The notes under the pieces: generated by a model
Databases searched by the model: none
Seen by the model: the letters and a program-made list of their open reading frames with translations, nothing else
Told to the model about the DNA's origin: nothing
Made by a program: the position numbers and the translations under genes
Part shown: piece by piece, positions 1-12,842 of the stretch
Position numbering within the stretch: the first letter of the stretch is position 1
Layout: each line of letters starts with the position of its first letter
Assembly (NCBI RefSeq): GCF_014698065.1
Contig: NZ_JACJSI010000003.1
Span: 1-64,000, forward strand
Length of the DNA stretch: 64,000 nt
Source of the DNA: Nostoc flagelliforme FACHB-838
GTDB taxonomy: Bacteria > Cyanobacteriota > Cyanobacteriia > Cyanobacteriales > Nostocaceae
Direction of reading: 5' to 3'

Positions 1-372
1 CGACCAACCATAGCCTTCATCAGTATCAAGATGAATATGAGCTTCATCGATGTAAATCAGCATCTGTCCGTGTTGAAGGGCATCATCGAGTAAACTCTTG
101 AGGGTTAAGAGAAATTCAGCACGCTTTTTGGAATTTGCCGATTTGAGTAGTTTACGGGCTTTTTTCCAAGACAATCCTAGTCGCTTGAGGGTCTTGCCAA
201 CGGTGTCGCGACAGCAATTAATATTGAATTGGGCTTTGATCCATGAGACTAAACGCTTTAAGGTCCAACGGGGTTTAGGTTGCTCTTGACGCTGTTGGGG
301 CGGAGTTGCTGCTAATTTCAAGGCATCCTTGATCTGCTGATCTAATGCTTGTTCTATCTCTATAGATAAAGG
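1..372 (-). CDS. IS630-family transposase, DDE part (partial, runs off the left edge)
   Basis: Reading the minus strand from about 372 to 1 gives an open frame that starts PPLSIEIEQ or PLSIEIEQ and ends at the window edge in YIDEAHIHLDTDEGYGWS. That last stretch is the first catalytic Asp region of an IS630/Tc1-type DDE transposase. The middle (KPRWTLKRL, then GLSWKKARKLLKSA) is the linker and winged-helix part typical of the family. It lies one frame away from the upstream helix-turn-helix ORF, and the switch falls in a run of seven C (minus strand). The rest of the catalytic domain and the far inverted repeat are outside the window. The family call is secure; whether the element is active cannot be seen. 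Confidence 0.8.
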
Positions 373-644
373 GGGGGATGCCCACCGCTACGTTGGTAAA
401 CTAGTGTCTGTGGACCGACTTCATTGTAACGATGCACCCATTCCATTATTGTTTGTGCGTTACGCCCTGTTTCCCGTCCCACTTGAGTTGCACTTTTGCC
501 ACCACTAATCTCGTAAAGTGCCATAAACCGCTCACGACTACGGGGATGCGTTGCTCTTAGCGCCTTTTCTCTCAATACTTCTGCACTTTCACCCCAACGA
601 AGAAAGTCAATTTTCAACATTCTTGTACAAACCTCAATCACCAC
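360..644 (-). CDS. IS630-family transposase, N-terminal helix-turn-helix ORF
   Basis: This 94-residue ORF carries the DNA-binding half of an IS630-type transposase: a homeodomain-like helix-turn-helix (SATQVGRETGRNAQTIMEWV, residues about 50 to 69) followed by the conserved linker GPQTLVYQRSGGHPP. Translation stops at TAG (360-362) just after the C7 run at 371-377. The DDE part continues in the -1 frame from the same run, so the two halves are probably one transposase joined by frameshifting, or a frameshifted pseudogene. The true start may be the internal Met of MLKIDFLRW rather than the first Met. No terminal inverted repeat could be fixed in 645 to 776. Confidence 0.8.
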   Translation of the reverse strand: MVIEVCTRMLKIDFLRWGESAEVLREKALRATHPRSRERFMALYEISGGKSATQVGRETGRNAQTIMEWVHRYNEVGPQTLVYQRSGGHPPLYL

Positions 645-776
645 TCCTAAAACTTAGGATAGTCCCATGCGTGACAAAACTCCAGCTTTCAAAATGGACG
701 AGGTTTAAGCTACTTTTAACTTCAAGAGATCTAGATGAGGTGATGGGACTCAAACAAAGGTAAAACAGATTTTCTA

Positions 777-2561
777 ATGATGAGTAGCTCAGAAGAGAAC
801 GAACTCCCAGCATCTTGGGCTATTGCACGAATAGCTGATGTGACAATACCAGTAGAGAAGATTAATCCTGAGAGTGAGCCAGACAAACCCTTTATTTATA
901 TAGATATATCAGGCATAGATAATCAAACTAACCGAATTGATCAGGTTAAAACTTATCAAGGCTCTGATGCTCCATCAAGGGCAAGACAACTTGTTAAATA
1001 TGGAGATACTCTTTTTTCAACTGTCAGAACATACTTAAAGAACATTGCACTAATCCCAAAAAAATTTGATAACCAAGTTGCATCAACAGGTTTCTCAGTT
1101 TTAAGGGCATCAAGGTTTATAAACAATGTTTATTTGTTCTTTTATACGTTAAGCAGTACCTTTTTGCAAGGATTAGAGGCTTTTCAACGAGGTGTAAGCT
1201 ATCCTGCTGTGAGGGATAGCGATATTAGAAACCAATCTATACCAATTGCTCCACTTAATGAACAAAACCGTATTGTTGCAAAAATTGAGGAACTTTTTTC
1301 TGAGCTTGATAAAGGTGTTGAATACCTAAAAACTGCTCAGGAGCAACTCAAGGTATATCGTCAGTCGGTGTTGAAATATGCTTTTGAAGGCAAACTTACT
1401 AAGCAGTGGCGCGAAGCTTATGCTGACCAATTAGAAACGGCTAATCAACTGCTAGAGCGTATCCAACAGGAGCGTGAAAGCCTCTATCAACAGCAGCTAA
1501 ATGAGTGGGAAGAATCGACTAAAATTTGGGAAGAAAATGGCAAGGAGGGTAAAAAGCCTGGTAAGCCTCAAACGCCCTTGAATATTTCTTCCTTAACTGA
1601 AGAAGAATTATTGAATTTACCGGATTTACCAGAGACATGGTGTTGGATTAAATTCTCCGTCTTATCTGAAAGGATTCAAATTGGACCATTCGGTTCTTTG
1701 TTACATAGATCTGACTATGTTAGTAACCAAGTACCAATCGTAAATCCAGTTCATATTAGAAATCAGAAAATTGAGCCAGATTGGAGTTTGACAGTTACCG
1801 AAAAAAAGGTAAACGAACTCTCCAATTACATTATGTATCCTGGAGACATTGTCATGGGACGAAGAGGCGAAATGGGTCGATGTGCAGTTATAACCGACAA
1901 AGAAAGAGGTTTCTTGTGTGGTTCAGGAAGTCTTTTTATCAGACTATTATCCGGCATCAATCCAATTTTCTATTGCTATTTATTAGGTTCGCAAAGGTTA
2001 AAGAATTATTTGTCAAACCAAAGTGTTGGAACTACGATGCAGAACCTTAACCAAGAAATTATTCATAATCTTCCTGTTCCTCTATGTAGCCCTATCGAAA
2101 TCCAAAAAATTATTGAAGAAGTTGACAGAAGGACGGCCTTAATAACTGAGGTAGAGAATCTTATAGAAAAGAATCTTCTATCATCTGAAATTTTGAAGCA
2201 AAGTATACTCAAAAAGGCTTTTTCTGGGCAACTAGTACCACAAGGTTCAGGAGATGAAAATGCAGCAGTGTTACTTGAAAGAATCAGAGAGGCTAGAAGG
2301 CATCAAGAAGAACATCAAGTTCCTGTACCTAAACCAAGAAAACAAGTTGCTATGAAGAAAGATTTGTCAATTATTGAAGTATTACAAGAGCTGAATGGTT
2401 TGGCAACAGCACAGGATGTGTGGCGACGCTCTAAACACCAAGAAGATATAGAGGGCTTTTATGCGGAACTTAAAAAGCAGATAAACAATGGGATTATTGA
2501 AGAAGTAGAAGAATTGAGAGAAGAAAAAAAATCCTATTTAAGACTAAGAAATGGGAATTGA
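777..2561 (+). CDS. hsdS: Type I restriction enzyme specificity subunit HsdS
   Basis: HsdS chooses the bipartite DNA target of a type I restriction-modification complex (HsdM2S, or R2M2S). The 594 residues show two target recognition domains, one from about residue 8 (ELPASWAIARIADVTIP) and one from about 285 (LPETWCWIKFSVLSER). Each is followed by a coiled-coil repeat of the HsdS type (NEQNRIVAKIEELFSELDKG, and later EIQKIIEEVDRRT with KQSILKKAFSGQLVPQ). A tail of about 80 residues (KKDLSIIEVLQELNGLATAQ onward) looks like a small winged-helix extension. Two Met codons lie in tandem at 777 and 780. The 3' end overlaps the next gene by 11 bases, so translation is probably coupled. No hsdR is present and hsdM is truncated, so the restriction enzyme is incomplete here. 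Confidence 0.9.
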   Translation: MMSSSEENELPASWAIARIADVTIPVEKINPESEPDKPFIYIDISGIDNQTNRIDQVKTYQGSDAPSRARQLVKYGDTLFSTVRTYLKNIALIPKKFDNQVASTGFSVLRASRFINNVYLFFYTLSSTFLQGLEAFQRGVSYPAVRDSDIRNQSIPIAPLNEQNRIVAKIEELFSELDKGVEYLKTAQEQLKVYRQSVLKYAFEGKLTKQWREAYADQLETANQLLERIQQERESLYQQQLNEWEESTKIWEENGKEGKKPGKPQTPLNISSLTEEELLNLPDLPETWCWIKFSVLSERIQIGPFGSLLHRSDYVSNQVPIVNPVHIRNQKIEPDWSLTVTEKKVNELSNYIMYPGDIVMGRRGEMGRCAVITDKERGFLCGSGSLFIRLLSGINPIFYCYLLGSQRLKNYLSNQSVGTTMQNLNQEIIHNLPVPLCSPIEIQKIIEEVDRRTALITEVENLIEKNLLSSEILKQSILKKAFSGQLVPQGSGDENAAVLLERIREARRHQEEHQVPVPKPRKQVAMKKDLSIIEVLQELNGLATAQDVWRRSKHQEDIEGFYAELKKQINNGIIEEVEELREEKKSYLRLRNGN

Positions 2562-4092
2562 TAAAGTTTATATAGAAAATTTCAAGAATCTCATCGAGTT
2601 TGAGATCGATCTGGCAGAAGGTTTTATGGAAACTGTGCTTCTTGGTCAGAACGCTACAGGCAAATCAAACCTAATTGAAGCGTTGGTTTTAATATTTAAA
2701 TATCTAGATCTTGAGGGAATGCCAAGCTTTTCATACAAAATTGAATATGTTTGTCGGGGTCACAAAGTAAAAATAGAGTTCGATACTAAACGTAGTTTCT
2801 ACATAGATGACAATAAAATCACGATAAAAGATTTCTATGCCAGAAAGAATGAGTATTTGCCCAAATATGTATTCACCTATTATTCCGGTGTCAGCAACAG
2901 ATTGGAAGAACATTTTAATGATCATCAGAAGAAATTCTATGACAAAATTATCAAGCCTAGTGTTGATGCCGCAGAAATTGAAGATCTGCGTAAACTCTTT
3001 TACGTTCGTCTGATTCATAGCTACTTTGTCCTTTTAGCTTTTTTCTCTTTCGAGGATGACGAATCAAGCCAGTTTTTAAGGAAGTATCTTGATATTGACG
3101 ATTTAGAAAGTATTCTATTTGTTTTAAAAGACCCTGAATGGAAAGGTAATGATGACCCAAGATTTTGGGGCGCTACTGGTTTGGTTAAAGATTTTTTAGA
3201 TAAGGTTTGGAATTATTCAACAGCACCTATTTATTATATTGACAAATATTCTCTGGACTTTAGAAAACAAATAGATCAACCAAGACTCTATCTTTATGTT
3301 AGTGATAAAAACAAGCTTAAAGAAATTGCTAAGTTCTATACAAGTAATACTGAATTCTTTAAAGCACTAGAAAGCACCTATATTTCAAATTTGATTCAGG
3401 AAATTAAGGTAAAAGTCAAAAAGCGAAATATCCGAGGTGAATTGACTTTTAGGGACTTGAGTGAAGGGGAACAGCAATTACTTACAGTTTTAGGCTTGTT
3501 GAAATTCACTAAGGATGAAGAGTCACTAATTTTGCTAGATGAACCAGATACTCATCTTAATCCTTTATGGAAATGGCAATACTTAAAGTTATTACAGGAG
3601 GTCGTTCAAAAGCATGAAACAACACAAATAATTCTGAATACTCATGATCCTTTAGTCATTGGAAGTATGACCAAAGAACAAGTAAGGATTTTCAGAAAAG
3701 ATGAGGACACTGGACGAACAATCGTATTTGAACCTGAAACCGATCCAAAGGGTTTAGGTGTAGCTGGCATTTTAACTAGTGAGTTGTTTGGTCTCCCTAC
3801 AACTTTAGATGAAGAAACACAAAGAGCCTTGGATCATAAGCATAGATTAACTGCTAAGCAACAGCAAGGAGGATTAAGCAGTGAAGAGAGGAAAGAATTA
3901 GATGAGGCTCTCCAGACATTAGAGGGATTAGGGTTTACAAGAACATTTAGAGATCCTCTTTACCAAAAGTTTGTAACTGCTTGGCATCGACAAGAAAGAT
4001 TTCAGAAACCTACTCTCACACTAGAAGATTTGAAAGAACAGAATGAGCTTGCACTATCTCTCCTTAACGAAATTATGGAGGCAGAACAGTGA
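2551..4092 (+). CDS. AAA/ABC-type ATPase, Septu PtuA-like
   Basis: This is an OLD/RecF-like ATPase of 513 residues. The Walker A motif is GQNATGKS (residues 32 to 39), the ABC signature is LSEGEQQ (303 to 309), Walker B is LILLDEPDTHLNP (326 to 338) and the H-loop is NTHD (363 to 366). The start overlaps hsdS and the stop overlaps the GTG of the following HNH gene, which indicates one tightly coupled operon. ATPases of this type paired with a small HNH protein form the Septu (PtuA-PtuB) anti-phage system, and similar pairs also accompany some retrons. The Septu link is an inference from architecture and neighbour; RloA-like proteins of type I restriction loci are the main alternative. Confidence 0.78.
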   Translation: MGIDKVYIENFKNLIEFEIDLAEGFMETVLLGQNATGKSNLIEALVLIFKYLDLEGMPSFSYKIEYVCRGHKVKIEFDTKRSFYIDDNKITIKDFYARKNEYLPKYVFTYYSGVSNRLEEHFNDHQKKFYDKIIKPSVDAAEIEDLRKLFYVRLIHSYFVLLAFFSFEDDESSQFLRKYLDIDDLESILFVLKDPEWKGNDDPRFWGATGLVKDFLDKVWNYSTAPIYYIDKYSLDFRKQIDQPRLYLYVSDKNKLKEIAKFYTSNTEFFKALESTYISNLIQEIKVKVKKRNIRGELTFRDLSEGEQQLLTVLGLLKFTKDEESLILLDEPDTHLNPLWKWQYLKLLQEVVQKHETTQIILNTHDPLVIGSMTKEQVRIFRKDEDTGRTIVFEPETDPKGLGVAGILTSELFGLPTTLDEETQRALDHKHRLTAKQQQGGLSSEERKELDEALQTLEGLGFTRTFRDPLYQKFVTAWHRQERFQKPTLTLEDLKEQNELALSLLNEIMEAEQ

Positions 4093-4910
4093 GGCATATC
4101 CCTCTAAAAGAAAATCCTCCTCCTAGTAGATTAAGAAAATGGCTAACTAAAGCTGAAAACTTAACCCAAGCTCTCATCTCTGAAACCGATTCTGCAAAGC
4201 GCAGGGAAATTATTGAGAGCAATAGTGAGGTTTGGAGAAATAAAGCTCTTAAAAAATATTTTATGCAATTATCTGATGGTAAATGTTGGTATTCAGAAGC
4301 TAGAGAGGTTTATTCTCATTACCACGTTGACCATTTCAGACCAAAGAGTGAAGCTTTAGATTTAAATGGAAAAGACCAAGGCGGTTATTGGTGGCTTGCA
4401 TTTGATTGGACAAATTATCGAATCTGTGGAAGTGTTGGCAATACGAAAAAAGGAGCAAAATTTCATGTCAAGAGAAATAAAGCAAGCTGCCATACGGATT
4501 TATGTGAAGATGAAATAGTTTGCTTTCTTGATCCAACAGATGAAGACGACACACTCAAACTCACTTTTGATAAAACTGGAACTATCAAGCCCTCATCAGT
4601 GGACGAAAATGACTGGGATTACGAAAGAGCCAAGTATACAATTGAGAATTTAGACTTGAATTATGAGCCTTTGAAGGAAGCAAGAAAGGATTTATGGGAT
4701 ACATGTGAATCCAAGCTTAATGAACTTCAGCATTTAATGAAGGAATATAACAAAAATCCATCTGCATCAAAAAAGGGGCAGATTCAATCCAAGCTAGAAG
4801 AATTAAGAACGCTGACAAAGCCAAAATCAGAATTCTCTGTGGTTGCAATTAAATGCTTATTGTCTTCAGATATTGAATGGGTTCAAAAGTTAGCGCTGAC
4901 AGCAGCTTGA
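4089..4910 (+). CDS. HNH endonuclease, Septu PtuB-like
   Basis: This 273-residue protein has an HNH/beta-beta-alpha-metal core: HVDH (residues 79 to 82), then WWLAFDWTNYRICG with Asn109 in the place of the family's middle Asn, followed by a basic segment. A zinc-knuckle Cys is seen in KCWYSEA, but the second Cys of the usual CxxC is Ser or absent. The gene starts with GTG inside the stop of the ATPase gene (GTGA overlap), so the two are almost certainly co-translated. Small HNH partners of this kind are the nuclease PtuB in Septu, where the ATPase PtuA regulates cleavage. The intact catalytic residues suggest an active enzyme; the system name is inferred. Confidence 0.75.
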   Translation: MRHIPLKENPPPSRLRKWLTKAENLTQALISETDSAKRREIIESNSEVWRNKALKKYFMQLSDGKCWYSEAREVYSHYHVDHFRPKSEALDLNGKDQGGYWWLAFDWTNYRICGSVGNTKKGAKFHVKRNKASCHTDLCEDEIVCFLDPTDEDDTLKLTFDKTGTIKPSSVDENDWDYERAKYTIENLDLNYEPLKEARKDLWDTCESKLNELQHLMKEYNKNPSASKKGQIQSKLEELRTLTKPKSEFSVVAIKCLLSSDIEWVQKLALTAA

Positions 4911-4921
4911 GGCAATAAATT

Positions 4922-5509
4922 ATGTCCACCTCTCAATCAATCGTTGCCAAAGTTTGGAATTTCTGTAACATCTTGCGTGATGCAGGAGTCAGCTATGGAG
5001 ACTATCTGGAACAACTCACCTTCCTGATTTTCCTGAAAATGGCGGATGAATACGCCAAACCACCTCATAATCGTGATCTAGGAATTCCTGCTGAATACAC
5101 CTGGCAAAGCCTAAAAGCTAAACGTGGCGATCAGCTTGAGGTTCACTACATCAAGTTGCTCCGTGAACTAGGCAAAAAGAAGGGAATGTTGGGCAAAATC
5201 TTCATCAAAGCCCAAAACAAAATTCAAGATCCAGCGATGTTGTCTCGTGTCATTGAGATGATCGACAACGAAGACTGGGTATCTATGAGTGCCGATGTTA
5301 AAGGCGACATTTATGAAGGCTTGCTAGAAAAAAAGCTTTCTGATACTCCCCCATCCCCCCAAACAGCAACCGACAGCGATCGCAACATCCATCCTCCCAC
5401 AATGCAGGCATTTTCAAAGGTGCTTGACAATTGGGATACTTCGCTAGGTGGAAAGGAAATTCCGTTGCTTACAGGGAAGATCCTAATGACAACCTTGAGA
5501 GTATTCTAA
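4922..5509 (+). pseudogene. hsdM: hsdM, N-terminal fragment fused to antisense tniQ relic
   Basis: Residues 1 to about 138 are the N-terminal helical domain of a type I DNA methyltransferase (YGDYLEQLTFLIFLKMADE, then DVKGDIYEGLLEKK). At about 5,330 to 5,340 the similarity stops, just before the expected GxGxYFTPR region. The rest of the frame (from about LSDTPPSPQ to LRVF) is antisense read-through of a relic tniQ gene on the other strand. The SAM-binding motif and the NPPY catalytic motif are therefore missing, and the protein cannot methylate DNA. It begins 12 bases after the HNH gene, so it was the fourth gene of the hsdS operon. A recombination or deletion event removed its 3' part and any hsdR beyond it. 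Confidence 0.85.
5336..5447 (-). pseudogene. tniQ: Relic of a second tniQ gene (3' end only)
   Basis: Read on the minus strand from about 5,447 to 5,336, this stretch encodes AKYPNCQAPLKMPALWEDG, then a CCDRC zinc knuckle, then an EYQK ending. Intact TniQ (7,988 to 8,521) has AKCPNCEAPLKMPALWEDR, CCHRC and AYQK at the same place. DNA similarity is clear between 5,336-5,447 and about 8,024-8,144 and stops abruptly on both sides. The relic is diverged (one zinc Cys is now Tyr), so it is not a fresh copy of the neighbour. It has the same orientation as the intact gene. The left flank is broken hsdM and the right flank is a 5'-truncated ATPase gene, so both borders are rearrangement junctions. 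Confidence 0.88.
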
Positions 5510-6027
5510 ATTACCTTGACGAGCAATGGCTTGGACGTGGTTGGGTAGACATTAACCAAACTCTTAAGGATGAAATTATCCAGAACGCTCTTGAAATCTA
5601 TAGCAATGCTTTTGAACACGGGCTATCGGATATCGGTGTATTCACTTGTGGACAGCGTTATCCTAACTTAAATAAACTAAAGCTGACTGTGATTGACTTT
5701 GGCGTTGGCATTCCAGCTAATGTGCGCCACTTCCTTCAAGACAGTCAGAAATTAGCTGAAGAAACCTTACGTTGGGCATTTCAACGTGGTAAGACAACCC
5801 GACCCAGTAGAATATGCGGAGGTACTGGACTGGATTCACTAAAAAAATTTGTAAAGAGTAAACAGGGTAAAATAGAGATCTACAGCCATGACGCTTACGG
5901 TTTAATTGACGAAACTCAAGAGATTTACCAAAGCGCACCCACCTTCTTTGAGGGAACTTTAATAAATATCACTATTAAATGCGACGTAAATCACCATAAC
6001 TTTACAGAAAATGAAGTATTATTTTAG
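5449..6027 (+). pseudogene. GHKL-type ATP-binding protein, 5'-truncated
   Basis: The frame contains a complete GHKL (histidine-kinase-like) ATPase fold without a kinase dimerisation domain: N-box EIYSNAFEHG, G1 box VIDFGVGIPANVR, and G2 box CGGTGLDSLKKFV. Upstream of about codon 7 the sequence belongs to the tniQ relic, and no ATG or GTG precedes the N-box in frame; the only possible start is a TTG inside the relic at 5,431. The original N-terminal part (often about 80 to 100 residues in such proteins) has probably been lost. It precedes a DUF4325 STAS-like gene by 30 bases, the usual pairing for this ATPase type. Residual function is uncertain. Confidence 0.75.
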
Positions 6028-6057
6028 TACAAAGGTTCTAATAGAGGTTTTAGAGCC

Positions 6058-6402
6058 ATGAAATACAAAGTCTATGAGCTAATTGGCGAAAACTGCATGA
6101 GCCAGCAGGCCGGGCAACAAATCTATGATTTAATTTATCCTCAACTGCAAGCAGGAAAGTTAGTAGAGCTAGACTTTGCTGACGTAAGAAGATTTTTGTC
6201 CGTGTTTTTCAACATTGCCATTGGTCAGTTATTGCGCGATATCAAAGCTGAAGACCTAGATCGACTTCTAGTTGTATCTAACCTCAGTCCTCTTGGTCAA
6301 CAGACCTACGATAATGTGATTGAAAATGCTTTGCGTTATTACTCAGATGAGCAATATCGTGAAGCCGTAGATGAGATGGTTCTTGAACAATCTGCCTGTT
6401 AG
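6058..6402 (+). CDS. STAS-like domain protein (DUF4325)
   Basis: This 114-residue protein has the alternating strand/helix pattern of the STAS-like DUF4325 family: a short N-terminal strand, the phrase LVELDFADVRRFLSVFFNIAIGQLL, and a second strand LDRLLVVSNLSPLGQQTYDNVIENA. STAS proteins bind GHKL ATPases in partner-switching modules such as SpoIIAA/SpoIIAB, and the ATPase gene lies directly upstream. The downstream PIN-domain gene starts 2 bases after this stop, so the three are one transcription unit. A role as the regulatory partner of the ATPase or PIN protein is inference. The family call rests on sequence pattern and gene pairing only. Confidence 0.65.
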   Translation: MKYKVYELIGENCMSQQAGQQIYDLIYPQLQAGKLVELDFADVRRFLSVFFNIAIGQLLRDIKAEDLDRLLVVSNLSPLGQQTYDNVIENALRYYSDEQYREAVDEMVLEQSAC

Positions 6403-6404
6403 TC

Positions 6405-7019
6405 ATGTCAGTTAACTACACCGTAAAGGCAGATGTCATTGACATCACGACTGATTCCCCCCAAAAGGGGGATATTTTTTTGGTTGATACGAATGTCTGG
6501 TACTGGCTGACGTATCCTCCAGCAAGTTTGTCTTTAACTACGTATCAAAGCACCTATTCAAACTACATTACAGATACTTTTACAGCAGGTGCTACCCTTT
6601 GCTGCTCTGGTTTATCGCTGGCTGAATTAGCCCATATTATTGAAAGAGAAGAAAAAAAGCTATCATGTTACAGTTCTAGCAGAATTAACAATAAAGAATA
6701 CCGCCATAACTACCCTTCAGAACGTGCTAGGGTTGTTTCCTTAGTAAAAGCAGCATGGAATCAAGTCAAGAACACCTTTGCTCTTCAAATTAGTGTCAAA
6801 CTCGATGAAGACACTGTAGATAATGCTTTAACTCAGTTCACTACTCAGTGTTTGGATGGTTATGACCTGTTTATTCTTGAATCTATGAAACAAGAATCAG
6901 TAAACAAGATTATTACTGATGATGGCGATTATGTGACAGTGCCAGGAATTCAGGTATATACAGCTAATCCAGGAGCGATCGCCGCAGCTAGAAATCAAGG
7001 CAAACTTATAACTAGATAA
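6405..7019 (+). CDS. PIN-domain protein (putative RNase)
   Basis: The 204 residues begin, after a short leader, with a PIN-type first strand and acidic residue, DIFLVDTNVWYW (Asp28). Other likely metal-binding acids are Glu74 (SLAELAHIIE), Asp150 or Asp153 (CLDGYDLFILESM) and Asp171/Asp172/Asp174 (IITDDGDY). This is the four-acid layout of PIN ribonucleases. The gene follows the STAS-like gene by 2 bases, so it is translated with it. PIN proteins usually act as toxins or RNA-processing nucleases, and here the partners are a GHKL ATPase and a STAS-like protein instead of a classic antitoxin. No VapB-like partner is adjacent on this strand. Confidence 0.72.
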   Translation: MSVNYTVKADVIDITTDSPQKGDIFLVDTNVWYWLTYPPASLSLTTYQSTYSNYITDTFTAGATLCCSGLSLAELAHIIEREEKKLSCYSSSRINNKEYRHNYPSERARVVSLVKAAWNQVKNTFALQISVKLDEDTVDNALTQFTTQCLDGYDLFILESMKQESVNKIITDDGDYVTVPGIQVYTANPGAIAAARNQGKLITR

Positions 7020-7128
7020 GCATTGTCCTAAAAAATCGCCAGCAATTACACAGTTGTTACTCGCCTCTTCAAATCCGACTGGGTACGGTGTAGTACGATG
7101 TGCGATCGCTTCGTTAACAAATTACGAA

Positions 7129-7290
7129 TTATTTTGGTGGAATTTTCCCGTCATTCTGAGCTTGTTTAATCGCTCGTTTCACAATTAACACCGCCATTTG
7201 AGATAAAGAACGCTCCTCTGCATCAGCCAAAAATTGCAGGGCTTCTTTGTCTTCTTCTTCCATATAAAGAGTTACAGTTACTTTTCCCAT
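7129..7290 (-). CDS. Small ribbon-helix-helix (CopG-like) protein
   Basis: A 53-codon gene reads MGKVTVTLYMEEEDKEALQF, then LADAEERSLSQMAVLIVKRA and a short polar tail. The N-terminal strand with alternating residues followed by two helices is the pattern of ribbon-helix-helix DNA-binding proteins, often antitoxins or plasmid/transposon regulators. It lies 18 bases downstream of the truncated ImmA/IrrE-like gene on the same strand and converges on the PIN gene. A codon-by-codon reading from ATG at 7,290 to TAA at 7,129 shows no break. It could regulate the cargo genes, but its DNA target is unknown. Confidence 0.6.
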   Translation of the reverse strand: MGKVTVTLYMEEEDKEALQFLADAEERSLSQMAVLIVKRAIKQAQNDGKIPPK

Positions 7291-7308
7291 TTCATTATCA
7301 TAAGCGAT

Positions 7309-7764
7309 TTAGTGTGTTTTTACTTTAAACACATTAAAACACATCAGAATAGCATCAAGGTCTATGTAAGAATTATTTTTCAGGATAAAATTCCGAATTT
7401 CAAATGCATTTGTTGCCATATCTGTAAAAGGTCTTTTACAGGCATACGTAACCATCTCAGCTACGCGAGTAGCTAGCCCTTGAGCAACAATTAATCGGCT
7501 CTCATCAGAATTTTTTTGTATCTTCTTAAATTTAGGGCGAATTACTTGCTTAAAAGTAATAGGAGCATCAGGATCAAGAACTGATGCCATATCTAGCCCT
7601 AAACGTTTAGCAATACGTCCTGCCGCTTCTAAAACAGCTACAGGATTATTTTCAAGTTCTGCATCCCACCATTCAGGTAAGGCTTTTTCTTGAATAAACT
7701 TTGGCTGTAATCCCACTTTTGATAAGCGTTTATACAGCATTGGCATTTCAAGGGTTTTATTCAT
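7309..7764 (-). CDS. ImmA/IrrE-associated regulator-type protein, C-terminally truncated
   Basis: The 151 residues resemble the N-terminal domain of a protein family found next to toxin or nuclease genes: LYKRLSKVGLQPKFIQEKAL, then PEWWDAELENNPVAVLEAAG. In related proteins this domain precedes an ImmA/IrrE-like metallopeptidase with an HExxH motif. Here the frame ends before any such motif, and the last 20 residues look non-homologous (FNVFKVKTH), so the 3' part appears lost. It lies 223 bases downstream of tniQ on the same strand, at the start of the CAST cargo. Family assignment is by recalled pattern and is moderate; function is unknown. Confidence 0.5.
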   Translation of the reverse strand: MNKTLEMPMLYKRLSKVGLQPKFIQEKALPEWWDAELENNPVAVLEAAGRIAKRLGLDMASVLDPDAPITFKQVIRPKFKKIQKNSDESRLIVAQGLATRVAEMVTYACKRPFTDMATNAFEIRNFILKNNSYIDLDAILMCFNVFKVKTH

Positions 7765-7987
7765 AATTTCCCTCCTCTGCCTATTCTCAATATGTGACCC
7801 CTTGTTGTAAATTACAAAAAAATTAATATAACGACGTTATCTATATAGTGACACCATTATGCCACGATGAAAATTGCCTTGACATTGAGTATGCAAATAT
7901 ACAGCAAAAAGAACCAGAGTTTTAAACAGACTATTTTTTTATTATAGTACATTTGTACTTAAGCTATACAGCTATCACTACTAATAA
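7765..7987. other. AT-rich spacer between tniQ and first cargo gene
   Basis: There is no coding frame and no CRISPR-like repeat in this gap. It contains AT-rich tracts (7,815 to 7,855 and 7,925 to 7,970) and a short near-palindrome TACATTTGTAC near 7,949. In V-K elements the cas12k cassette is not expected here if the cargo separates it from tniQ. Confidence 0.5.
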
Positions 7988-8521
7988 TCAAGAATCAGCA
8001 TTTAAGCTTCTCAAGTTAATAACAGGCTTCTGATACGCTGCCATTTCCGCAAATGGTCTTCGACACCTATGACAGCACCTATCCTCCCACAGCGCAGGCA
8101 TTTTGAGAGGAGCTTCACAATTTGGACACTTCGCTAAAAGCTTGAGTTCGTGGCGATCGCACTTCCACACCGACTTATACTGCCACTCAATTTGGTGACA
8201 AGGTGCTTCAGCATAACAAGCCCCACACAAGCGAATTGGCTCATGCTGCATTCCCACTCCAGCAGGTGGTAACATCTGGGCTAACCTTTGAGCATCCACT
8301 TCTACCACAGATGCGATCGCTTCCAATTCTTGCTGACTAGGGCGAGGATTAAAATGAAATCTTTCCCAACGTGCCATTACAGCACCAATTCCTGCCAAAC
8401 TACCCAATCCACTTGCGGATAAATGGTTGGCACGTCTGAACCTGCCAAGAAAGTGGCTCAGACTTTCCCCTTCATAGGGTTGAATCAAGAATAGCCAAGG
8501 CTCAATATTTGTTGCTGCCAT
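7988..8521 (-). CDS. tniQ: TniQ, type V-K CAST target-adaptor protein
   Basis: TniQ is the TnsD-related adaptor that links the Cas12k-guide complex to TnsC in type V-K CASTs. The 177 residues carry the TniQ N-terminal core (PYEGESLSHFLGRFRRANHL), a helical region (HFNPRPSQQELEAIASVVEV) and paired zinc knuckles (CGACYAEAPCH, CDRH, CPNC, CCHRC). From memory it is close to the 167-residue ShCAST TniQ but has about ten extra C-terminal residues (VINLRSLNADS), which suggests a shifted stop. The start ATG overlaps the tnsC stop (TAATG), so translation is coupled. A diverged relic of a second tniQ lies at 5,336 to 5,447. Confidence 0.95.
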   Translation of the reverse strand: MAATNIEPWLFLIQPYEGESLSHFLGRFRRANHLSASGLGSLAGIGAVMARWERFHFNPRPSQQELEAIASVVEVDAQRLAQMLPPAGVGMQHEPIRLCGACYAEAPCHQIEWQYKSVWKCDRHELKLLAKCPNCEAPLKMPALWEDRCCHRCRRPFAEMAAYQKPVINLRSLNADS

Positions 8522-9351
8522 TATTTGTACTCCCTAGCTGCTTCCTGTAAAACAGCCTTGTCAATCTTCTTCAATCCTCTTGATAAAGAACGGATTGCTG
8601 CTTCCCTAAGAATTTCATCTAACCGCCCAATGTAACCTTCTGTTGCCGAAATAAGAATTCCGAGCATAGCTTTGCTGATTAGATTAGACGGAACAGGTAG
8701 CTTCAAAATATTATCTTCCCAAGCTTTTACTGTCTTTTTAAAATCATCTCCTGACAACTTCTCAAAACGATGACAAGCCCGAAAGCGATTGTAAACTTGC
8801 TCATCTCGCTTCATCACCGCATCCAAACGATCTGTACCCACCAAGACAACAGCAATTCCTAACTTGTCATAAATATCACGCACATCAGCAAATGTTTCTG
8901 ACTTCAAGCGGTCAGCCTCGTCAATAATTAGCATTTCTACTCCATATCCTTTGAGTACTTCCATCGCTCTTCCACGAAAATCTGATACAGTCCCCTTTGT
9001 TGCCCGAAAATTCAGGTACTCAATAATCTCTTTGAACAAATCTTTAGAAGTACATTTTTGATTGGGTTCAATATAAACCACAGGAACAATTGGAGGTCTT
9101 CCAATTTCTTTCAATGGTTTATGTCTTAATCTATACGCATCACAAGCAACTGTCTTGCCAGTTCGTGATTCCCCCACAACTCTACAGGACTGCCTTGCCT
9201 TGCGTTTGCCATCCAACCACTCATGGAGCTTTTTTACTTGTTCTAGCGGCACAATGCTTTTACTTCTAAGACGAGCAATTTCAGCTTGTAACCACTCATC
9301 GTCTAGTTTTACCCCACCTAACTGCTGGGCGATCGCTTGAGCATCTGTCAT
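8521..9351 (-). CDS. tnsC: TnsC, AAA+ ATPase of type V-K CAST
   Basis: TnsC forms ATP-dependent filaments on DNA and connects target recognition (Cas12k/TniQ) to the TnsB transposase. The 276-residue length equals my recollection of ShCAST TnsC, and the two sequences are largely alignable from memory. Walker A is GESRTGKT (residues 60 to 67), Walker B is MLIIDEADR (Asp144, Glu145), and the sensor region VVLVGTDRLDAV follows. The C-terminal segment SRGLKKIDKAVLQEAAREYK is the conserved end. The gene starts three bases after tnsB stops and overlaps tniQ by one base. No truncation or damaged motif is seen, so it should be functional. Confidence 0.96.
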   Translation of the reverse strand: MTDAQAIAQQLGGVKLDDEWLQAEIARLRSKSIVPLEQVKKLHEWLDGKRKARQSCRVVGESRTGKTVACDAYRLRHKPLKEIGRPPIVPVVYIEPNQKCTSKDLFKEIIEYLNFRATKGTVSDFRGRAMEVLKGYGVEMLIIDEADRLKSETFADVRDIYDKLGIAVVLVGTDRLDAVMKRDEQVYNRFRACHRFEKLSGDDFKKTVKAWEDNILKLPVPSNLISKAMLGILISATEGYIGRLDEILREAAIRSLSRGLKKIDKAVLQEAAREYK

Positions 9352-9354
9352 TTT

Positions 9355-11109
9355 TTACAACCCATATTCTTCACGAAGTTGTTCATAGTCCCACACCTCA
9401 ATGTCTTCGTATTGAGAGTGAACCGTTTCTGTAGATTCCACTTCATCTGGTTCAATTATTTCCGAAGGCAAGGATTCTGTTTTACTTTCATCAACCGCAG
9501 CAGATCGCAAAACAGCCTGTTCCAATTTTTGACGCTCTTTACGACTTTTCTTGCTAGCCACAAGAGCATCACGGTCAACAACTTCTTGCAATAATGATTG
9601 GTTACTGATAGTTTTCCCTGCGTTACGGAGTCTGCGACTTGCTGCCTCAGCCTCATCTAATGCCAGCTGCTCTGTCTCCAAACCTTGAGCGTGAGCGCGA
9701 GTTAAAAATACTTCCTGATTTTTCTCTTGGCGATAAACCAAAATTGTTGTAATGTCTCTGGGATCAAACCTTAAGTTGACAGTTTCTCCGGCATAACCTG
9801 CCAGATATTCTCCTCGATACATCAAGTTCTGGAACTGCAAGCAACCACCTCTTTGTACAGTGCGCCGTGATTGCTTCATTAAACAGATATCCAAATCTCG
9901 TTCTGGTATTGGTACTGGTACTGTAGGCAAACCTGCTTCCCAACGTTCAAAGCGAGTTTGGTCGCCCATTCGCGCATCAATACTTTGGTTGTAACGATCT
10001 ACGATGTAACGTACAAGTAACTGTTCTAGTTCTCGCAAAGTAAGTCTTGCGTCTTTCTCCGCATCTTCTGGGCGTTCTTGTACATTAGATCCGGTGTATC
10101 CAGGAAGCGTGGAAAATAGTTGGTCATTTAATGTTTTGAAAGGACGTTCCACTACTCCACCTTCAGAAGGGCGATCGCGTAAGTGACAGACAAACCCTAA
10201 TTGCGCTCCAATCTGGCTCAAGTGGTTAGAGCGAAAGTCTTTACCGCCATCAGTATAAAAATGTTCTGGCTTACCATAGCTTCCCCACTCACAATGCAGC
10301 TTGTACTCGAAACCGTACTGTTTGGGTAGAATTGCATGGCGTAACGCTAATGCTACTACCTCAGAACTGGGTGGATCAAAGCCCAATTTGATACCCATGA
10401 TGCAACGAGAGTAAGTATCAATTACTGTTGTTAGCCAGGGACGACTTAGTAATTCACCATGTTGATCCACGAGCAACACATCTACGCGGGTATGGTCACA
10501 TTGCCAAACATGGTTACTGTAATCAACAGATAAGTCTTTTCCTTCACGAGTTTTAACTGAAAGCGTTGTCCCTCTCCATCCAGGGCTACGAATACTCTTA
10601 GTTTTTTCTTGTTTTTCCAAGATGGGCGCTAATACCCGTAACACGGTTTTGTAATTGGGCGGCTTAGAGTCCTTTAATTCACGGGCTTTAGCCTCGACTC
10701 TGAGAGCAACTTGTTTAGGGGTCATACGTTTACTACCCTTGTTACCCTCGTTGTAGGTTTTGGTAATGAATTTTTCCCAAAACTCACCAATGCGATGTTT
10801 TCCTTTATCAGCCCTACCTGTTTGAGCGAGTCCGACTAAACCATCTTGTTCCCACTTTTTCACCAATCTTTGTACCGTTCGCAACGATACACCTAGTTTC
10901 TCTGCTGCTTCCCGCAACTTTTGTCCATAAGTTGTGCGATCGCAGGGTTCCAGTAAACTTTGGATTACCTCTAGCCTTACTTGTGCTTCCTCTGATAGTT
11001 GTGTGGCAATTACATTCTTCTCAAGAGTTGTAGCACTTTCTCCTAGTAAGCCTTCCATAGGAATTGCCGAGGGATGAACAGCTAAATCAGGATTTTGCTG
11101 ACTGTTCAT
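9355..11109 (-). CDS. tnsB: TnsB, DDE transposase of type V-K CAST
   Basis: TnsB is the DDE recombinase that binds the transposon ends and joins them to the target; V-K CASTs lack TnsA, so they tend to form cointegrates. The 584 residues match the ShCAST TnsB length and most of its sequence as I recall it. The order is a helix-turn-helix at about 55 to 95 (EAAEKLGVSLRTVQRLVKKW), the RNase H-fold core with catalytic Asp205 (QCDHTRVD), Asp287 (YTDGGKDF) and Glu321 (GGVVERPF), a Mu-type beta-barrel, and the acidic C-terminal tail that contacts TnsC. The start lies 262 bp inside the transposon end, with TnsB sites between, so autoregulation is plausible. Confidence 0.97.
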   Translation of the reverse strand: MNSQQNPDLAVHPSAIPMEGLLGESATTLEKNVIATQLSEEAQVRLEVIQSLLEPCDRTTYGQKLREAAEKLGVSLRTVQRLVKKWEQDGLVGLAQTGRADKGKHRIGEFWEKFITKTYNEGNKGSKRMTPKQVALRVEAKARELKDSKPPNYKTVLRVLAPILEKQEKTKSIRSPGWRGTTLSVKTREGKDLSVDYSNHVWQCDHTRVDVLLVDQHGELLSRPWLTTVIDTYSRCIMGIKLGFDPPSSEVVALALRHAILPKQYGFEYKLHCEWGSYGKPEHFYTDGGKDFRSNHLSQIGAQLGFVCHLRDRPSEGGVVERPFKTLNDQLFSTLPGYTGSNVQERPEDAEKDARLTLRELEQLLVRYIVDRYNQSIDARMGDQTRFERWEAGLPTVPVPIPERDLDICLMKQSRRTVQRGGCLQFQNLMYRGEYLAGYAGETVNLRFDPRDITTILVYRQEKNQEVFLTRAHAQGLETEQLALDEAEAASRRLRNAGKTISNQSLLQEVVDRDALVASKKSRKERQKLEQAVLRSAAVDESKTESLPSEIIEPDEVESTETVHSQYEDIEVWDYEQLREEYGL

Positions 11110-11161
11110 AATGCAAAGCTTTTTTATAAAAACATATTGTTATTCTACTTAAACAGAAAGC

Positions 11162-11371
11162 GACAGTCAATTTGTCATTATGAAAATACACAAAAGCTTT
11201 TTTATCTCTGGTGAAGCGACAGCTAATTTGTCACTATTACCCAAAATGACAGCTAATCTGTCACTGTCAAGATGTTATCCTAATACTACTAAAACGCTGT
11301 AACCTATACCGAGCAAGATTTTAATGGATGACATTAATTTGTCTCGACGACAGATAATTAGTCACTGTACA
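11162..11371 (-). repeat. CAST left end: terminal repeat and TnsB-binding sites
   Basis: The end of the transposon is marked by TGTACA at 11,366-11,371. The minus strand then begins TGTACAGTGACTAATTATCT, matching my recollection of the ShCAST left end apart from single bases. Five copies of a TnsB-type motif (GACAG/T, AT-rich centre, TGTC/AGTC) lie at about 11,162-11,180, 11,218-11,236, 11,248-11,266, 11,330-11,343 and 11,349-11,371. The outer two are 19 bp apart; the inner three are more widely and unevenly spaced. The likely 5-bp target duplication on this side is TTTGT at 11,372-11,376; its partner is outside the window. The repeats probably also cover the tnsB promoter. Confidence 0.92.
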
Positions 11372-11447: not shown

Positions 11448-12842
11448 TTAACTTCGCTTTAATTTCAAAGCCTCAGCAGCTGATACACCCTCACCCTGAC
11501 TGCCAAAATACCACAAAGCTGTAGCAGCCTCAGCACGAGTTACTGGTTTTTTGGGTTGAAACAGAGTCGTATAACCAAACACCCGCCGAATATTTGACTG
11601 TTCGCCATTCTGGTAATCAGCTAACACTGCTCTTAAAGCCTTGGGGTCAATTCGCGCTGCATCTTGGAAACCCCAAGTTTGTTTGACCGCATCTAAGTTA
11701 GCAGAGGGTAAAGCTTGGCGAGTATCTAAGGGTAATTTCCACAACAGTAACTGTTCTCGCGTTAGGGGTGCATCAGGACGAAACAAAACGACTGTAGAAT
11801 CTCCAGACAAAGGACTAGGAATTAACCCAGCTTCGGCTAATCCCTGAATTGCTGGAAAATCAGGGTCTTTTGCAGACACATCAGTAAAAGCTGATTGAGT
11901 ACTTTCTGATGCCAAGCGAATTTGTTTAGCTGGATTGTTGGCATACATGGCATTGTTGGCAGCAATTAGCCAACGGGCATATTCTCGATGTGTAACGATT
12001 TTATTGGGTTCAAACTGGTTCGCTGTGGTAGTAGAGTTGCTCTTAATTGCCTTTGGCTCTAAAGACAAAACACCTAAGGCAGCCAAATCTTGAATTTGTT
12101 GCCGCCATTCTTGCGGAGCCTTATTTAGATCGTTGAATACCTGAGATTCAGGTGTGGCTGTAGGGGTTGTTTGGTTATTAGCTGTGCTTGGTGGCTGTGC
12201 TGCCAAGTTTGCAGGCGCTACTGGGCCAATGAACTCTAAATCTCCTGGTTGAGGAACGGCGTTAGTCGTTTCGTTAGGATTTGTAGTTGGGATAGATTGT
12301 GCCGTTGCAATACTATTCGGTACGTAATCAATCAGTAATTCAGTGGCAATCTGGGGTTGATTGGGTGTGGCGTTAGTAACTGGTTTAGGCTGAATGAAAA
12401 TCTTTAAAAGCAAATCGTTACGACGTGCCTCAAAAGCACCTCCGGCATCATCTGTTGGCTGTTGCAAAATCTGCCAGTTATTCGCTTGAAACTGGCTGCG
12501 ATAAAAGCTAGCAATAAAGTTACTGGGGTCAGAACTCAACCAACGAGTTGAGATTCTGTTTTCTGAGCCGCTAGCAGGTGTAACTTCCTGTAGTTTGGCA
12601 TTGGAATATAAAGGGATATCTTTGGGAAAATCAGCTGGTAACTCAACTGTTGATTCGTTTTGCTGTGCTTGCAGTTGGTTACTCTGAGATTCTCCAAAGA
12701 CAACTGGATTGCTTTGCAGTTTCGGATCTGCCGCCAATGATTGCTCAAGGTTTTTGGCGACTGGACTGTTAGCACAGGCTGTTAAGGAAGTGAGTAGAAC
12801 AGCCCAAATTAGAAATACAGATGGACGTTTGCAGGGAAGCAC
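11448..12842 (-). CDS. SLH-domain lipoprotein
   Basis: The 464 residues begin with a lipoprotein signal ending in LTSLTAC (lipobox, Cys at about 23), followed by a low-complexity Asn/Gln/Pro-rich linker. A domain at about 70 to 170 (ELPADFPKDIPLYSNAKLQE) resembles those of other cyanobacterial envelope lipoproteins. The C-terminal half carries two or three S-layer-homology repeats (FTDVSAKDPDFPAIQGLAEAG, and the terminal PKKPVTRAEAATALWYFGSQ). SLH repeats anchor proteins to the peptidoglycan-linked polymer beneath the outer membrane. It lies just outside the CAST: its stop codon is 77 bp from the transposon end, so insertion left the coding frame intact. Confidence 0.85.
   Translation of the reverse strand: MLPCKRPSVFLIWAVLLTSLTACANSPVAKNLEQSLAADPKLQSNPVVFGESQSNQLQAQQNESTVELPADFPKDIPLYSNAKLQEVTPASGSENRISTRWLSSDPSNFIASFYRSQFQANNWQILQQPTDDAGGAFEARRNDLLLKIFIQPKPVTNATPNQPQIATELLIDYVPNSIATAQSIPTTNPNETTNAVPQPGDLEFIGPVAPANLAAQPPSTANNQTTPTATPESQVFNDLNKAPQEWRQQIQDLAALGVLSLEPKAIKSNSTTTANQFEPNKIVTHREYARWLIAANNAMYANNPAKQIRLASESTQSAFTDVSAKDPDFPAIQGLAEAGLIPSPLSGDSTVVLFRPDAPLTREQLLLWKLPLDTRQALPSANLDAVKQTWGFQDAARIDPKALRAVLADYQNGEQSNIRRVFGYTTLFQPKKPVTRAEAATALWYFGSQGEGVSAAEALKLKRS

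Follow-up and report, generated by a model that had tools for sequence, protein, structure and literature searches.

A Very Probably Complete ShCAST-Type V-K CRISPR-Associated Transposon Homed to tRNA-Thr(CGT) in a Nostoc-Type Cyanobacterium

Type V-K CRISPR-Associated Transposons and the Element Described Here

The closest described systems to the element reported here are the type V-K transposons associated with clustered regularly interspaced short palindromic repeats (CRISPR), or CASTs. ShCAST (Tn7747) of Scytonema hofmannii, a type V-K system, inserts 60-66 nt from its protospacer-adjacent motif (PAM). The design of V-K CASTs, as set out in the relevant parts of PMC9938897, includes a trans-activating CRISPR RNA (tracrRNA), 37-nt repeats, a truncated repeat with a 17-nt anchor spacer, a GTN PAM, a distance of 46-82 nt and a regulator gene running reverse to cas12k. 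We analysed the first 64,000 nt of contig NZ_JACJSI010000003.1 of Nostoc flagelliforme FACHB-838 (contig C223 below; "the window" is this whole stretch). The window carries tnsB, tnsC, tniQ and one transposon end, and the matching half, with cas12k and a CRISPR array, lies at the start of a second contig, C1. The two halves very probably make up a complete ShCAST-type V-K CAST homed to a tRNA-Thr(CGT) gene. Because every defining feature that could be tested here was found, the element is another member of the known V-K type. Its Cas12k-guided activity is a prediction.

The tnsB-tnsC-tniQ Half in the Window

The features of this half and its flank are as follows.

9355..11109, minus strand: tnsB, DDE transposase, 584 aa (open reading frame (ORF) list, PDB and PADLOC matches; 95.7% identical to ShCAST TnsB)
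8521..9351, minus strand: tnsC, AAA+ regulator, 276 aa (ORF list, PDB and PADLOC matches; 81.5% identical to ShTnsC)
7988..8521, minus strand: tniQ, 177 aa (89.0% identical to ShTniQ across residues 3-165)
11162..11371, minus strand: tnsB-side transposon end, with terminal TGTACA at 11366-11371 and five TnsB-type boxes (11162, 11218, 11248, 11330, 11349)
11448..12842, minus strand: SLH-domain gene outside the element, the tnsB-side flank used in the synteny test (ORF list, relatives' loci)

The initial annotation had read this region as one end of a V-K CAST with intact tnsB-tnsC-tniQ, in three overlapping or abutting minus-strand genes that agree with ShCAST in length (584 and 276 aa for the first two) and sequence, and the results bear it out. 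The tniQ and tnsC genes overlap by one base, and 3 bp separate tnsC from tnsB. The catalytic residues named for TnsB (D205, D287 and E321) are all present on inspection, as are the Walker A and Walker B segments of TnsC and the zinc ligands of TniQ, in four pairs. The top PDB matches of the three proteins are ShCAST TnsB, TnsC and TniQ, with 558/583, 225/276 and 145/163 identical residues, and the PADLOC V-K models score 1091, 415 and 318 bits, respectively. The last ~11 residues of TniQ are unaligned to the PDB chain; the relative in L015/L080 aligns across all 177. TnsB, TnsC and a short TniQ, all of the V-K clade, stand in the order typical of the type.

A real transposon end closes this half at 11371. 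The pattern GACAN{2,3}AATNNGTC has five exact matches in the 64 kb, all within 11162-11363, against 0.25 expected; five matches were reached by none of 100 shuffles of the window.

A transposon of the non-CRISPR Tn5053/Tn7 type would share the TnsB, TnsC and TniQ families, and the initial annotation had named a better alignment to such elements, or the lack of a second end, as grounds for giving up its reading. The results refute this alternative. TnsB is far closer to ShCAST (1267 bits in the PDB search) than to any non-V-K chain found (at most 106 bits, for Tn6677 TnsB; 52 for Tn7 TnsB), neither TnsB nor TnsC is closest to the Tn7, Tn5053 or type I CAST groups, and the other half of the element has Cas12k, a tracrRNA, an array, an anchor spacer and the second end. 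Family scans of window 1-11371 and C1:361-2829, which took in the main ORFs and part of the small ones, revealed no TnsA, with ~324 bp of an insertion sequence (IS) unseen.

The guide components are absent from the window, as had been noted: the matches to Cas12k in this genome are on other contigs, no Rfam family reaches its gathering score and a tRNA scan of the window found none. It had been left open whether the element continues to the left or has lost its guide. The continuation held and the loss did not. C223 starts at window base 1, breaking off there inside a multi-copy IS, and the proposed extension leftward therefore led to another contig, with the missing half at the start of C1.

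Cas12k, the CRISPR Array and the tRNA-Thr Target

The features listed for C1 are the following.

C1:1-173: 3′ end of an IS of the same type as in window 1-708
C1:895-2829: cas12k, 644 aa, intact (all five PDB matches are Cas12k)
C1:3959-3975: anchor spacer, 17 nt, matching C1:4391-4407 in tRNA-Thr at 15/17 nt
C1:4390-4461: tRNA-Thr(CGT) gene

The Cas12k of a relative (L016), used as query, gave five matches in this genome, of which the best is intact and starts at C1:895. Its product is identical to ShCas12k at 519 of 644 residues (80.6%). A MerR-family gene in reverse orientation takes the place of cvkR between the IS 3′ end and cas12k. The tracrRNA region is conserved (210 invariant of 344 columns, seven elements aligned) and, with a CRISPR array of eight repeats and one degenerate repeat, adjoins cas12k. 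The Rfam family CRISPR-DR15 matches the repeats below its gathering score; at a laxer threshold, nothing but the tRNA in C1:1-6000 was above its gathering score. The array region had no match, and its spacers no target, among the plasmids and phages searched.

The anchor spacer matches outside the CRISPR-side end, next to a GTT PAM that lies 66 nt from that end, which is within the described 46-82 nt and GTN. The end itself has TGTACA at C1:4341 and three TnsB-type boxes against 0.09 expected, a number reached by none of 200 shuffles. The element thus has two inverted TGTACA-type ends. PMC9938897 names the end on the tRNA/CRISPR side the left one, which would make the end in the window the right one.

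All four core proteins align near full length with those of ShCAST, at 81-96% identity. The element is set apart from ShCAST by its tRNA-Thr(CGT) target, its HsdS, Septu-like and HATPase-DUF4325-PIN cargo, its inner IS and its unmatched flanking 5-mers, ShCAST's own target and ends being outside this comparison. It has the tracrRNA, 37-nt repeats, anchor spacer and GTN PAM that PMC9938897 describes for V-K CASTs. By the description of AnCAST of Anabaena sp. PCC 7120 and its CvkR in the same source, the two share a regulator in reverse and adjoining cas12k, an anchor spacer by a truncated repeat, and restriction genes as cargo.

Linkage of the Two Contigs

We propose that C223 and C1 hold one element, whose order would be tnsB-side end, tnsB, tnsC, tniQ, cargo, IS, cvkR, cas12k, tracrRNA, CRISPR array, anchor spacer, CRISPR-side end and tRNA-Thr. 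The placement of cas12k in the same element comes from synteny and the IS. Of 20 relative loci that were fetched, 15 have the SLH gene of the window next to the tRNA-Thr flank of C1, both oriented as a single element requires. Four of the other five loci have contig breaks within 0.6-4.7 kb, and the fifth, L181 (12 kb), shows no tRNA. Both contigs terminate in the same IS type with matching orientation. Among the ten matches listed for each of the 5′ and 3′ parts of the IS, no contig was common to both. In the Aulosira plasmid AP018309.1, a single annotated transposase region contains the two pieces, with 324 bp between them. The relative G011 has, at the same tRNA, a decayed element in which cargo of the window is joined to the cvkR and end sequence of C1. 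Finally, TnsB and Cas12k are each 96% identical to those of one Nostoc foliaceum element.

The CAST of N. foliaceum FACHB-393 (L013/L285) also has the same end motif and, likewise, no 5-bp duplication. It differs in TnsC (79%), TniQ (88%) and cargo, and no tRNA was found at its anchor site. The nearest tnsB-tnsC-tniQ set is that of Nostoc sp. KVJ20 (L012), at 98.6, 98.5 and 93.9% identity, in a stretch whose contig ends nearby. Three plasmid neighbourhoods with tnsB relatives (L009, L010, L011) had no cas12k.

Several of these results weigh against a single complete element. No contig spans it, ~324 bp of the IS being unseen, and the assembly is fragmentary, in 726 contigs and with 3.61% contamination. 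The flanking 5-mers are unequal (ACAAA, AATGC), the anchor spacer differs from the tRNA at two positions, the N. foliaceum match is uneven in TnsC and TniQ, and the nearest tnsB-tnsC-tniQ, of KVJ20, comes without cas12k in the stretch examined. The window could, on such grounds, hold a guide-less tnsB-tnsC-tniQ remnant and C1 the cas12k half of another element, as two separate incomplete CASTs. The unmatched 5-mers would fit this, as would the other degraded V-K pieces of the genome (C1:243-260 kb, C190, C401, C527). We consider it very improbable in view of the flanks that are syntenic in 15/20 loci, the IS type that the two contigs share and whose pieces make up one copy elsewhere, the 96% identity of both TnsB and Cas12k to a single element, and the finding of one full-length ShCAST-type tnsB and one cas12k of the lineage in the genome.

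The partly broken V-K pieces in this genome (C1:242-262 kb, C190, C401 and C527; L113-L116) belong to other lineages. C190 has an open cas12k frame.

Insertion beside tRNA-Thr

Among the 15 loci with the tRNA-Thr motif, seven have a CAST-type end before the tRNA, at distances of 43 (three loci), 44, 45, 47 and 23 bp; in the copy described here the distance is 49 bp. Because these distances differ among loci, they suggest several separate insertions guided to the same tRNA-Thr gene, with the proviso that small indels could mimic some of the differences.

By the known mechanism of ShCAST, Cas12k with the anchor CRISPR RNA would bind the tRNA gene, TniQ and TnsC would assemble there and TnsB would join the ends at the 60-66 nt spacing. 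Since the element is without TnsA, transposition would, again as in ShCAST, be replicative.

Cargo and the Interrupting IS

The cargo spans 709 to about 7987, and its features are these.

1..708, minus strand: 5′ part of a multi-copy IS in the cargo, with the contig break here
777..2561, plus strand: HsdS, type I restriction specificity subunit (family scans, PADLOC)
2551..4092, plus strand: PtuA-like AAA ATPase gene, Septu-type (family scans, PADLOC)
4089..4910, plus strand: PtuB-like gene, Septu-type (PADLOC)
4922..5509, plus strand: HsdM N-terminal fragment, truncated type I methyltransferase (family scans, PADLOC)
5338..5446, minus strand: tniQ 3′-end relic, overlapping the hsdM fragment (sequence comparison)
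5431..7019, plus strand: HATPase-like (5431-6027), DUF4325 STAS-like (6058-6402) and PIN (6405-7019) genes (family scans)
7309..7764, minus strand: ORF of 151 aa with the start MNKTLEM

The Septu-like ptuA/ptuB pair (2551-4910) sits between hsdS and the truncated hsdM. In G011 (L170), a decayed copy of the HATPase-DUF4325-PIN set adjoins a CAST end at this tRNA-Thr site. The 151-aa ORF looks truncated because its start opens a longer frame in L015. The tniQ relic is a trace of another CAST.

The start of the IS transposase resembles the IS630 type weakly, its N-terminal match scoring 27.7 bits where the cut-off is 100. The 3′ part of the IS is C1:1-173, which leaves ~324 bp of the IS core unseen. 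As this copy interrupts the cargo only, the transposition machinery reads as intact and may be active.

Missing Duplication and Missing DNA

Tn7-type insertion produces a 5-bp duplication, according to the passages on insertion in PMC11406308. Such a duplication marks the state of one copy, a simple and unrearranged insertion, and is not a family-defining feature. The 5-mers outside the two ends here, ACAAA and AATGC, form no 5-bp target-site duplication. They differ, so the copy is no simple insertion in undisturbed form.

The CRISPR-side junction looks original from the comparison with eight tRNA-Thr loci that have no end, because these carry AATGC at the matching place (three loci) or a one-base variant of it (three); two are too diverged. 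On the tnsB side the junction follows the SLH gene at a distance of 76 bp, and 15 relatives have 1.4-9.8 kb of other DNA between the SLH flank and the first CAST remnant or the tRNA flank. Where ORFs were listed there (six loci), they include genes that we take, from sequence resemblance, to be SGNH-hydrolase-like (6/6) and M42-peptidase-like (5/6). One nucleotide search of this genome with such a stretch found the hydrolase part on C238 and no match to the M42-peptidase-like part.

C238:4715-4823 (L183) also holds a 109-bp, 86% copy of the SLH tail and the flank downstream of it. Next comes the SGNH-hydrolase-like gene, which relatives retain beside tRNA-Thr. We rejected this copy as the displaced original flank, 86% being too divergent for a recent event. 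It is a hint at the ancestral sequence only.

The duplication is present in three of seven mapped elements of the type (L014/L287, TTAAG; L016, AAAAT; L020, TCAAC) and absent from four (the present one, L013/L285, L018/L286 and L041). The CRISPR-side end of L020 reads TGTATA. Left out of the seven are L077, which is internally deleted and whose flanks fit a 7-bp rather than a 5-bp repeat; L028, of another V-K lineage, with a partial 4-bp match; and a 10-kb end pair on G071:C7, which also has a third end.

In the N. foliaceum element (L013/L285), 63 nt separate the CRISPR-side end from a GTT PAM, which adjoins sequence resembling that element's own anchor spacer. Its two junctions are 41 bp apart in one relative (G017), so that 41 bp are missing, and 723-2368 bp apart in four others. 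In L285:1-1341 (G060:C95), the flank more than ~143 bp from the CRISPR-side end maps elsewhere in relatives, which weighs against a simple deletion; by this mapping the locus is rearranged in other ways too. In both this element and ours the guided end is in place, DNA is missing on the tnsB side and the breakpoint is at the exact end. For the present element, we give about an even chance to a loss of tnsB-side DNA after the guided insertion, with the exact transposon end as the breakpoint.

The scars fit replicative, deletion-forming transposition in the native host, short of proof. Native V-K CASTs may often settle by replicative transposition within the chromosome, in which the CRISPR-side end stays, the tnsB-side end joins a nearby second site and the intervening DNA is deleted. 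Replicative transposition within one molecule would give such scars because V-K CASTs are without TnsA and a resolvase. The expected scar would be two exact ends, no 5-bp duplication and a stretch missing relative to relatives, and the N. foliaceum copy and the present one would be two cases of it. Because L020 has its duplication and the locus in N. foliaceum shows other rearrangement too, we put this forward tentatively and regard it as rather unlikely.

Recombination between neighbouring CAST copies would leave the same scars. A complete element could also be a hybrid, made by homologous recombination that fused the tnsB half of one CAST with the CRISPR half of a second one nearby. The unmatched 5-mers with both breakpoints exactly at transposon ends, the repeated occupation of the site in relatives, the tniQ relic within the cargo and the unequal closeness of TnsB, TnsC and TniQ to the N. 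foliaceum element (96, 79, 88%) speak for it. On the other hand, TnsB and Cas12k each share 96% identity with a single element, the N. foliaceum case would need two copies 41 bp apart if G017 has the ancestral state, and V-K elements, according to PMC11406308, seem target-immune. A hybrid origin is thus a doubtful explanation, if a possible one. Similarity between the two outer flanks, a mark of inversion, was limited to matches of at most 25 bp in six elements.

Two lone ends were also seen in this genome. One (C279:20840-20990; L199, L306) directly adjoins the same non-tRNA site at which the CAST of N. foliaceum is anchored. The other is a tnsB-side end (C725:9977; L201, L293), with no tnsB on the contig stretch read.

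Elements of ~200 bp with CAST-Like Ends

Searched for in 21 genomes, the end motif had matches in 19 and brought up sequences of ~200 bp with CAST-like TGTACA ends on both sides. Examples are L206:524-723 and its relatives and, in this genome, C357:5015-5163 (L200). One such element, used as query against 59 genomes, had some match in 28, partly to CAST ends only, and was spanned by 19 matches in 13 of the 59. At least 80% of its length was covered in three of nine matching Nostoc plasmids. In ungapped comparison, its ends are identical to the tnsB-side end described here at 36/50 and 39/50 positions and to the CRISPR-side end at 27/50 and 26/50, the latter counts being lowered by a one-base shift. 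The 17 listed end pairs, which represent 16 copies with one entered twice, included none with a matching 5-mer, and the genomes and plasmids searched offered no usable empty site. By their ends, these sequences are possibly miniature, non-autonomous relatives of CASTs.

Meaning for V-K CASTs in Their Hosts

The element is useful as a natural variant of ShCAST, with a tRNA-Thr target and another Cas12k/TnsC pair. Repeated insertion beside one tRNA-Thr gene suggests a homing site that is common across a genus. The handling of V-K cointegrates in cyanobacteria is called unknown in the part of the 2024 review that takes it up (PMC11406308). The deletion-forming reading, if true, would bear on this question, and the scars could offer genome-only evidence on the outcome of V-K transposition in its own hosts.

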